The notes under the pieces are model-generated. The model was not told the origin of the DNA and ran no database searches. It worked only from the letters and a program-made list of their open reading frames with translations. This document shows positions 158 through 6,415 of a DNA stretch of 37,247 bases, in pieces. The position numbers and the translations under genes were made by a program. Location: positions 1 through 37,247 of the forward strand of contig DAIDJK010000220.1 in assembly GCA_027450225.1 (NCBI GenBank). Direction: 5' to 3'. This DNA comes from Bryobacterales bacterium (lineage in GTDB: Bacteria > Acidobacteriota > Terriglobia > Bryobacterales > Bryobacteraceae). Within the stretch, counting starts at the first letter, position 1, and the number at the start of each line of letters is the position of its first letter.

Positions 158-535
158 GTGCAGGTGAAAACACTCACTCCGGCCGATCTCGACAACGTCC
201 TCTCGCGCATGGACGCGGCCGAAATCGATGAACTCCCTTTCGGCGCCATCCAGCTGGACAAAAGCGGAAAGATTCTGACCTATAACTCCGCCGAAGCCGA
301 CATCACCGGTCGAAACCCGGCAGCCGTCATCGGCAAAGACTTCTTCAAAGATGTTGCCCCGTGTACCGCCCGGCCGGCGTTCCAGGGCGTGTTCCAGCAG
401 GGGGTGCTCAACGGCAGGCTCGACACGCTCTTCGATTACACGTTCGACTACAACATGAAACCGACTCAGGTGAGGGTGCATATGAAAAAGGCGCTCGTCG
501 GCGATACCTTCTGGATCATTGTCCGCCGCATCTGA
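158..535 (+). CDS. pyp: Photoactive yellow protein (PAS-fold blue-light photoreceptor)
   Basis: 125 aa; motifs [33 protein letters not shown] and FDY.M.PT.V.VHMKKAL.GD match Halorhodospira PYP (recalled) without gaps. Y42, E46, T50, R52, C69 and M100 fall at identical numbering. GTG start at 158. Confidence 0.93.
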
Positions 536-567: not shown

Positions 568-1707
568 GTGAAGTTGCTCCCCGTCGCCGCAGTCGCGGCG
601 CTTTCATTCAGCATGAGCGCGGCCCGTATCGCCGCTCCCCAGGTCTCGCTGATTCACGCCCCGAATGGCGGCATTCAGCCGCAGGCCGTGGAGGAGAATG
701 GCGTGGTTCACCTCATCTACTTCTCCGGGGACGCGGCGCACGGCGATCTCTACTACGTCCGCTCCGCCGATTTCGGCGCGACGTTTTCCACGCCCATCCG
801 CGTGAATCAGAATCCAGGCGATTCCATTGCCATCGGCAACATCCGCGGCGCGCAGATCGCCGTCGGCCGCAACGGCCGTGTTCACGTGGCATGGAATGGC
901 GCCACAGCCGACCCACGCCGCTCGCCCATGCTCTACGCGCGCCTCAACGATGCCCATACCGCCTTCGAGCCCGAGCGCAACCTGATCCACTCCGCCTGGG
1001 GAATCGACGGCGGTGGAACCGTCGCCGCCGATCCCAAAGGGAACGTCTACGTGATGTGGCACGCGCCGATTCCTGGGCAGAAGGGGGAGGAAAACCGCCG
1101 CGTCTGGATCGCAAAATCGACCGATGACGGCGCCACCTTCGCCCCCGAAACCCTGGCGTTCTCCGAGCCCACCGGCGCCTGCGGTTGCTGCGGCATGCGC
1201 GCTTATGCCGACCCGGAAGGCAACCTCTACGCGCTCTTCCGCTCCGCCACAAACGTCGTCAATCGCGATATCTGGCTGCTCCGTTCCACAGACCATGGCC
1301 GCGGCTTCGAGGGAAAGGATATTTCCCACTGGAATATCGGCGCCTGCGTCATGAGTTCCGAATCCCTCGCGCCCGCGCCCGATGGCGTCCTCGCCGCCTG
1401 GGAATCCGAGAAGCAGGTTTACTTCGGCCGGATCGCGGCCGGCGCGGCGGGCATCTCCACCCCCGTAGCCGCGCCTGGCGCGCCGCAGAACCGAAAATAT
1501 CCCGTAGCCATCAGCGATTCGCGCGGCGAAACTCTCTTCGCCTGGACCGAGGGCATGGCATGGAAGCGCGGCGGCGCAGTCGAATGGCAGGTTTATGATC
1601 GCGGCGGCCAGCCTGAATCCGTCTCCGGCAAACAGGATGGCGTGCCCGCCTGGAGCGTCATCACTGCCTTCGCCAAACCCGACGGCGGCTTCGTAATCGT
1701 GTATTGA
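568..1707 (+). CDS. Secreted sialidase/BNR-repeat-like protein
   Basis: GTG start at 568 gives a signal peptide (MKLLPVAAVAALSFSMSAARIAA). Repeated 'D.GATF..P', 'D.G.VYV.W' and 'S.D.GRGF' motifs are typical of BNR/sialidase-like beta-propellers. The ATG at 361 in the ORF track lies inside pyp and is not needed. Confidence 0.7.
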   Translation: MKLLPVAAVAALSFSMSAARIAAPQVSLIHAPNGGIQPQAVEENGVVHLIYFSGDAAHGDLYYVRSADFGATFSTPIRVNQNPGDSIAIGNIRGAQIAVGRNGRVHVAWNGATADPRRSPMLYARLNDAHTAFEPERNLIHSAWGIDGGGTVAADPKGNVYVMWHAPIPGQKGEENRRVWIAKSTDDGATFAPETLAFSEPTGACGCCGMRAYADPEGNLYALFRSATNVVNRDIWLLRSTDHGRGFEGKDISHWNIGACVMSSESLAPAPDGVLAAWESEKQVYFGRIAAGAAGISTPVAAPGAPQNRKYPVAISDSRGETLFAWTEGMAWKRGGAVEWQVYDRGGQPESVSGKQDGVPAWSVITAFAKPDGGFVIVY

Positions 1708-2860: not shown

Positions 2861-2880
2861 ATGGTTCCCTGGGGAACCAT
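2861..2880. promoter_or_regulatory. Perfect 9-bp inverted repeat ATGGTTCCC-TG-GGGAACCAT between the ligase gene and hppA
   Basis: Direct reading: ATGGTTCCCTGGGGAACCAT. No T-tract follows, so an operator is more likely than a terminator. Confidence 0.4.
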
Positions 2881-3016
2881 CAACTGGCCCGAAACGGACA
2901 ACAAATCCCGGTGGGCTTATTGCAGCTTCGCGATTGGCCTGGATAGTCTATTGCAAGGCTGGACAATCGGTAGCCAGCACGTTTTGTTGAGAATTCAGAG
3001 GGGATTACTCAAGCAC

Positions 3017-5540
<2,524 letters not shown>

Positions 5541-5542
<2 letters not shown>

Positions 5543-5641: not shown

Positions 5642-6415
5642 ATGGCCTGGGAGAAGGAACTTACCACCGGCGCGGAGATCGCGCGCAAAGCCGGACAACT
5701 CGCGCTCAAGATTCGCGAGGGGAATATTGGGGTCGAATCCAAGTCGGACGAATCGCCCGTCACCATCGCGGATCGTGAATGCGAGAAGCTCATCGTCAGC
5801 GAACTGGAAAAAGCATTCCCGGACGATGGCGTACTCGGCGAAGAGGGCGCGAACCGCGAACCGGCGAACGGCCGCAAGTGGATCATCGATCCCATCGACG
5901 GCACGCGGGATTTCATCCGCGGTACCCGCGCCTGGAGCGTGCTCATCGGTCTTGAGCAGAACGGCAAGGTGGTCGCCGGACACGCCTACTTCCCCGCTTT
6001 CGATGAAATGTACTCCGCGGCGAAGGGCGAAGGCGCTTTCTGGAACGGCCAGCGCATGCGGGCTTCGGACGTCCAGAAAAAAAGCGAAGCCCTGCTCTGC
6101 TGCAACGGTCTCGGCTTCATGCACCGTTATCCGTTCGCGAATCAGCTTGTCGAATGGCTGCGCGACTTCTGGACCGTGCGCAGCATGGGCGGCTGTCTCG
6201 ACGCCATGCTGGTCGCCAGCGGCCGCGCCGACGCGTGGCTCGAAGCGCAGGCGAAGCCCTGGGATCTGGCGCCGCTGAAGATCATTGCCGAAGAAGCAGG
6301 CTGCGTCACGTTCGATTTCGAAGGCAAGGAGACGATCTATGGCGGTAATTTCGTCATCTGCGTTCCCTCCCTGGCCGACGAGTTGAAGCGCTTCACGGCG
6401 CGCCGCTCGGAATAG
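5642..6415 (+). CDS. Inositol monophosphatase / histidinol-phosphatase (HisN-like) family protein
   Basis: Motifs GEEG, WIIDPIDGTRDFIRG and 'AKPWDLAPLKIIAEEAG'. Confidence 0.88.
   Translation: MAWEKELTTGAEIARKAGQLALKIREGNIGVESKSDESPVTIADRECEKLIVSELEKAFPDDGVLGEEGANREPANGRKWIIDPIDGTRDFIRGTRAWSVLIGLEQNGKVVAGHAYFPAFDEMYSAAKGEGAFWNGQRMRASDVQKKSEALLCCNGLGFMHRYPFANQLVEWLRDFWTVRSMGGCLDAMLVASGRADAWLEAQAKPWDLAPLKIIAEEAGCVTFDFEGKETIYGGNFVICVPSLADELKRFTARRSE

Follow-up and report, generated by a model that had tools for sequence, protein, structure and literature searches.

A classical photoactive yellow protein ahead of an interrupted and frame-broken ligase gene in an Acidobacteriota-type draft genome

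A short open reading frame at the edge of an acidobacterial contig raises the question whether a genuine photoactive yellow protein (PYP) is encoded there and whether its host could also provide the chromophore. The window, i.e. the whole stretch of DNA that was analysed, is one entire contig (C220) of 37,247 bases from a draft genome that comprises 4.72 Mb in 555 contigs and is 91% complete, and pyp starts 157 bases from the left contig end. Very probably its product is a stand-alone PYP apoprotein of the classical (clade A-like) kind whose chromophore pocket is complete. The host genome is of Acidobacteriota type, and pyp is followed by a propeller gene native to the genus and by a frame-broken homologue of the 4-coumarate–CoA ligase pCL. 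In the best reading the protein is structurally fit to serve as a blue-light receptor, but its own supply of chromophore is in doubt because the ligase is frame-broken and no PF00221 match was found in the genome. The relevant features are:

158–535, + strand: pyp, a 125-aa single-domain photoactive yellow protein (TIGR02373, alignment with the Halorhodospira protein, residue table, AlphaFold and Foldseek)
568–1707, + strand: BNR-type β-propeller protein of 379 aa (genus orthologues, alignment, weak BNR_2 match under the cut-off)
1704–2564, + strand: first part of pCL with the AMP-binding core (TIGR02372, 184 bits), running 8 codons past the frameshift
2529–2539, + strand: apparent one-base deletion, where the frame switches within GR(K)DG, a conserved motif
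2534–2833, + strand: second part of pCL in the other frame, C-terminal ligase domain, which carries the GK motif (TIGR02372 positions 297–385, 55 bits)
2861–5542, + strand: sodium-translocating pyrophosphatase of V-type (NF001950, 1417 bits), outside the PYP system

The translation of 158–535 on the + strand begins with a putative GTG start and comprises 125 aa; a second in-frame GTG at position 164 is a possible alternative. With the NCBIfam equivalog TIGR02373 (curated cut-off 143.05 bits) the protein scores 175.4 bits (E = 4.4e-52), and a search of the PDB sequence set gave 33 matches at E ≤0.01 (best E 3e-49), each of them a PYP, a PYP domain or a derivative engineered from PYP. The Halorhodospira PYP is 61% identical over residues 9–125 (phmmer, E about 4e-48). 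A preliminary description had announced an alignment without gaps across 125 residues: it is indeed gapless but significant over 117 residues only, and residues 1–8, which have no significant alignment to the Halorhodospira protein, are also of low confidence in the AlphaFold model. Both the reading frame and the residue numbering shared with that protein were confirmed by phmmer, the residue table and the TIGR02373 score, Y42, E46, T50, R52, C69, T70, F96, D97 and M100 being numbered identically in the two proteins. In the residue table the Halorhodospira-numbered sites of the window PYP were compared with those of 34 other PYPs, whose commonest state is that of the window at L26, F28, G29, I31, D34, G37, Y42, N43, E46, I49 and T50 as well as at R52, F62, F63, V66, A67, P68, C69, F96, D97, M100 and W119. 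The residues that define PYP membership, namely Cys69 (thioester) and Tyr42/Glu46 (phenolate), are present according to both the table and phmmer, and Cys69 is the predicted attachment site of p-coumarate.

That a generic PAS domain became PYP-like by convergence can be regarded as practically excluded. Pfam assigns the window protein to PAS and has no single PYP family (Xing 2022, PMC9664959), but the generic PAS S-box model of NCBIfam gives 16.2 bits, under its cut-off, against 175 bits for PYP, and the identity to the Halorhodospira protein goes along with retention of C69, E46, Y42 and the whole pocket. The best hits are thus not generic PAS domains without C69 and E46, and convergence is refuted at the level of sequence.

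The AlphaFold model of the window PYP, built with 23 aligned PYPs, has a pLDDT of 84.7 with residues 1–6 below 50, and it predicts a PYP-type PAS fold. Foldseek superimposed this model on solved PYPs with an rmsd of 1.2 Å across 116 residues, gave a TM-score of 0.89 for 2PHY and ranked PYPs or PYP-derived entries as hits 1–41 in the PDB (TM up to 0.92); generic PAS domains appear only below about 40 such entries. Fold, equivalog score, complete pocket residues and the PYP-activation type of the ligase encoded nearby all bear out the earlier designation as a bona fide PYP. Known PYP biochemistry would imply that p-coumaroyl-CoA, made by pCL, acylates Cys69 and that Tyr42 and Glu46 hold the phenolate of the chromophore. 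Blue light would then isomerise the chromophore, Glu46 would protonate it and the partly unfolded protein would signal to a partner protein. Since PYPs with Thr50 absorb at 445 ± 2.7 nm (PMC12826048) and the window protein has Thr50, its absorption is predicted at about 445 nm.

On the contig no kinase, GGDEF, chemoreceptor or other regulator gene was found adjacent to pyp, and promoter and terminator scans revealed nothing that exceeds the shuffled expectation. CheW proteins are encoded elsewhere in the genome and a chemotaxis-type output via these proteins is possible. Gas vesicles were rejected as the output of the window PYP because a search for gas-vesicle protein (PF00741) in its genome (G000) gave none. 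The suggestion of a little-described signalling system is only partly right and applies to the output side; the photoreceptor itself is a textbook model.

What is new here is the interrupted and frame-broken supply operon, which is a local peculiarity. Among 80 named pyp loci 72 contain pCL directly downstream of pyp and none contains the propeller gene, and of the loci examined only the window has its pyp and pCL set apart by a gene of 1.1 kb. The distance from the pyp stop to the propeller gene is 32 nt, and the propeller stop overlaps the pCL start by 4 nt. The interposed protein starts with a stretch that resembles a signal peptide and contains the motif GACGCCG; from its sequence it is predicted to be a secreted β-propeller. 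Eleven of the 18 other same-genus genomes carry an orthologue (58–67%). Within the genus this propeller family (window 568–1707, L116–L127) is conserved, predicted to be secreted and marked by an invariant GxCGCCG motif, and in two genomes (G006 and G012) its gene is located directly 3′ of a citramalate-synthase-like gene.

TIGR02372, the model for 4-coumarate–CoA ligases of the PYP-activation family, is the best family of the window ligase by a wide margin. With both frames read through the ligase reaches 244.6 bits and remains below the curated cut-off of 334.7 bits, as do the intact pCLs of G538 and G587 with 292 and 297 bits. Its identity to pyp-linked ligases amounts to up to 47% over 356 columns and up to 51% in the C-terminal part. 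The alignment with 10 other pCLs runs unbroken through the frame change. Either one base was truly deleted there or the change stems from an error of assembly or sequencing. Being frame-broken and separated by the propeller gene, the window ligase does not represent an intact pCL next to pyp. A pCL-like ligase without the N-terminal part is found in another genome of the genus in which no PYP was detected (L157:7704–8612 in G004); it groups with pCLs of the window's family (96/93) and is possibly the remnant of a lost pyp operon.

No aromatic ammonia-lyase (TAL, PF00221) was found in the 91%-complete draft of 555 contigs. A match to the same family is also lacking in 4 of 12 other pyp genomes tested, several of these four being drafts, and a TAL gene is not strictly required, since of 113 published pyp operons no more than 7 include one (PMC12826048).

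These observations could be explained by a decaying relic: the frameshift in pCL would be genuine, TAL would have disappeared and the PYP apoprotein would either have no use or be close to loss. We consider this unlikely. A one-base frameshift in an otherwise alignable pCL, the lack of a PF00221 match, the native gene inserted between pyp and pCL and the long terminal branch of the PYP (see below) would all fit such decay. Nevertheless, the window PYP is fully intact with every pocket residue kept, and the alignable C-terminal ligase part in its open frame implies that the damage either arose recently or stems from the assembly. TAL may simply be missing from a draft of this completeness and fragmentation, and the four lyase-free genomes mentioned above possess an intact PYP. 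If, conversely, the ligase frame were intact and TAL absent, holo-PYP would be formed only with external p-coumarate, a plant phenolic; this we hold to be distinctly improbable. The same low probability attaches to the corollary that the PYP acts as a coincidence detector of blue light and plant phenolics, with the secreted propeller co-expressed in the operon.

An artefact, i.e. a pyp gene of another organism that was mis-joined or mis-binned, is very unlikely even though pyp lies so close to the contig edge in a fragmented assembly and the 33-residue tail upstream of it (1–102) has no Pfam family and no convincing match in any fetched locus. The order of pyp, genus propeller, pCL and pyrophosphatase cannot result from one mis-join, and pyp resembles its contig neighbours in GC (58%) and GC3 (77%). 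Of the 19 genomes of the genus that were searched, the window's own among them, 18 contain the pyrophosphatase (orthologues 78–87%), which serves as a vertical marker, and because both the propeller and the pyrophosphatase genes have same-genus orthologues the pyp contig can be considered native to the genus. Additionally, full-length matches of the long TonB protein of the window occur only on Granulicella and Acidisarcina plasmids, a pattern of sequence similarity that supports the placement in Acidobacteriota. Thus, the chromosome was rightly described as acidobacterium-like. Elsewhere on the contig (32987–33963) overlapping MacB_PCD and FtsX pieces in different frames represent an apparently truncated and frame-broken ABC permease.

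Returning to the classical PYP with doubtful chromophore supply, it does not extend the range of the family, as had been proposed. Acidobacteria are among the 10 PYP phyla listed by Xing 2022 (PMC9664959), Acidobacteriota hold 2.4% of the 984 PYPs of Dohmen 2025 (PMC12826048) and Acanthopleuribacter pedis carries a PYP, so the window protein newly joins a known family in which its phylum was already represented. Named classical PYPs with 53–64% identity to it come from Pseudomonadota, Spirochaetota, Thermodesulfobacteriota and one acidobacterium, the mentioned A. pedis. A screen of 396 genomes across the phylum gave 21 with a PYP-family match (E <1e-12), only that of the window exceeding the TIGR02373 cut-off. 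Within the window's order any PYP match occurs in 7 of 257 genomes and a classical PYP in 4 of 257, i.e. in the window's genome, G537, G538 and G587, the last with two copies. Our finding gives a phylum in which classical PYPs are few one more clear example, and it illustrates the patchiness of pyp inside a single order of acidobacteria. With pCL broken and interrupted and TAL missing, the locus lends itself to the question where such bacteria obtain the chromophore.

In the Halorhodospira halophila pyp–pCL–TAL operon the ligase follows downstream on the same strand, as its homologue does in the window, and its PYP (PDB 2PHY, 1NWZ) shares the length of 125 residues and the pocket including T50, R52 and M100. 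The window differs by the interposed secreted-propeller gene, the frame-broken ligase and the absence of a detected TAL. By taxonomy A. pedis (L065; Acidobacteriota, Holophagae) belongs to the same phylum and has a classical PYP 61% identical to that of the window, with a ligase whose C-terminal part is 51% identical. In contrast with the window this ligase is intact and directly downstream of pyp with no gene interposed, and PF00221 lyases are found in the genome. Closer by taxonomy are the PYPs of the window's family (G537, G538, G587; L192–L195), which are likewise single-domain proteins with Y42, E46 and C69 but only about 50% identical to the window PYP; pCL is directly downstream in 3 of their 4 copies, whereas that of the window is separated.

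In the phylogenetic reconstruction the other classical PYPs of the family cluster with one alphaproteobacterial PYP in a starred clade, and the window PYP is placed outside on its own long branch (terminal length 0.66 against a median of 0.15). Both the window PYP and its pCL fall into unresolved polytomies, and the attempt to identify a donor from these trees failed. AU tests did not reject a grouping of the window PYP with the other PYPs of the family (p-AU 0.166) or with Acanthopleuribacter (p 0.167), nor of the window pCL with the family pCLs (p-AU 0.146). The window PYP was probably acquired independently of the family's other PYPs, though this falls short of proof. The patchy distribution and the position of pCL beyond a native gene suggest that the pyp–pCL pair was gained by horizontal transfer and then rearranged; the case for transfer is drawn from distribution only, because the trees resolve no donor and a single origin in the family is not rejected. 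Phage origin was dismissed, the search of viral contigs having given a single hit of 34% identity, and so were plasmid relatives, for which four records of classical PYPs with 58–60% identity (Niveispirillum, Caballeronia, Indioceanicola) were found, none of them close.

Two relatives within the family show a different neighbourhood. In G538 (L192:7547–14915) pyp–pCL and TAL adjoin a gas-vesicle cluster with GvpA, GvpF/L and GvpK, and CheA, MCP and CheB are located beside the same pyp locus; in G587 (L194:152–8485) pyp–pCL adjoins genes for GvpA, GvpF/L and GvpK. Gas-vesicle genes near pyp have already been described in Rhodobacter capsulatus and in a strain of Loktanella (PMC3646047, citing Kyndt 2004), and no report of such a linkage in Acidobacteriota was found in the literature searched. 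The arrangement in G538 and G587 suggests light-linked buoyancy in the window's acidobacterial family, so that light control of buoyancy becomes testable in another phylum.

In the same genus, PYP-like proteins (G003, G014; L169, L170) share Y42, E46 and C69 with the window PYP but are only 36–38% identical to it, remain under the TIGR02373 cut-off and have T50 and R52 changed; their genes overlap a PAS-PAS-GGDEF gene and no ligase is located there. Across L169:5636–7356, L170:5434–7076 and L196:6398–8210 such divergent PYP-like genes, all with Y42, E46 and C69 kept, adjoin a second gene that overlaps in two cases and in L170 contains PAS and GGDEF domains according to Pfam. These pairs in the window's genus and family likely represent a route from PYP to c-di-GMP. 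Among more distant loci, classical PYPs occur in Desulfobacterota MAGs labelled SulCav (L035, L036, L045), which by name only may denote a sulfidic cave; in such a possibly lightless habitat a blue-light receptor would be odd. Finally, two PYP genes lie close together on opposite strands in Skermanella (L042:3506–3844 with 6001–6375), and a pair on opposite strands is also present in Acidisphaera (L084:5454–5801 with 6001–6348), where the copy at 6001 has Phe42.
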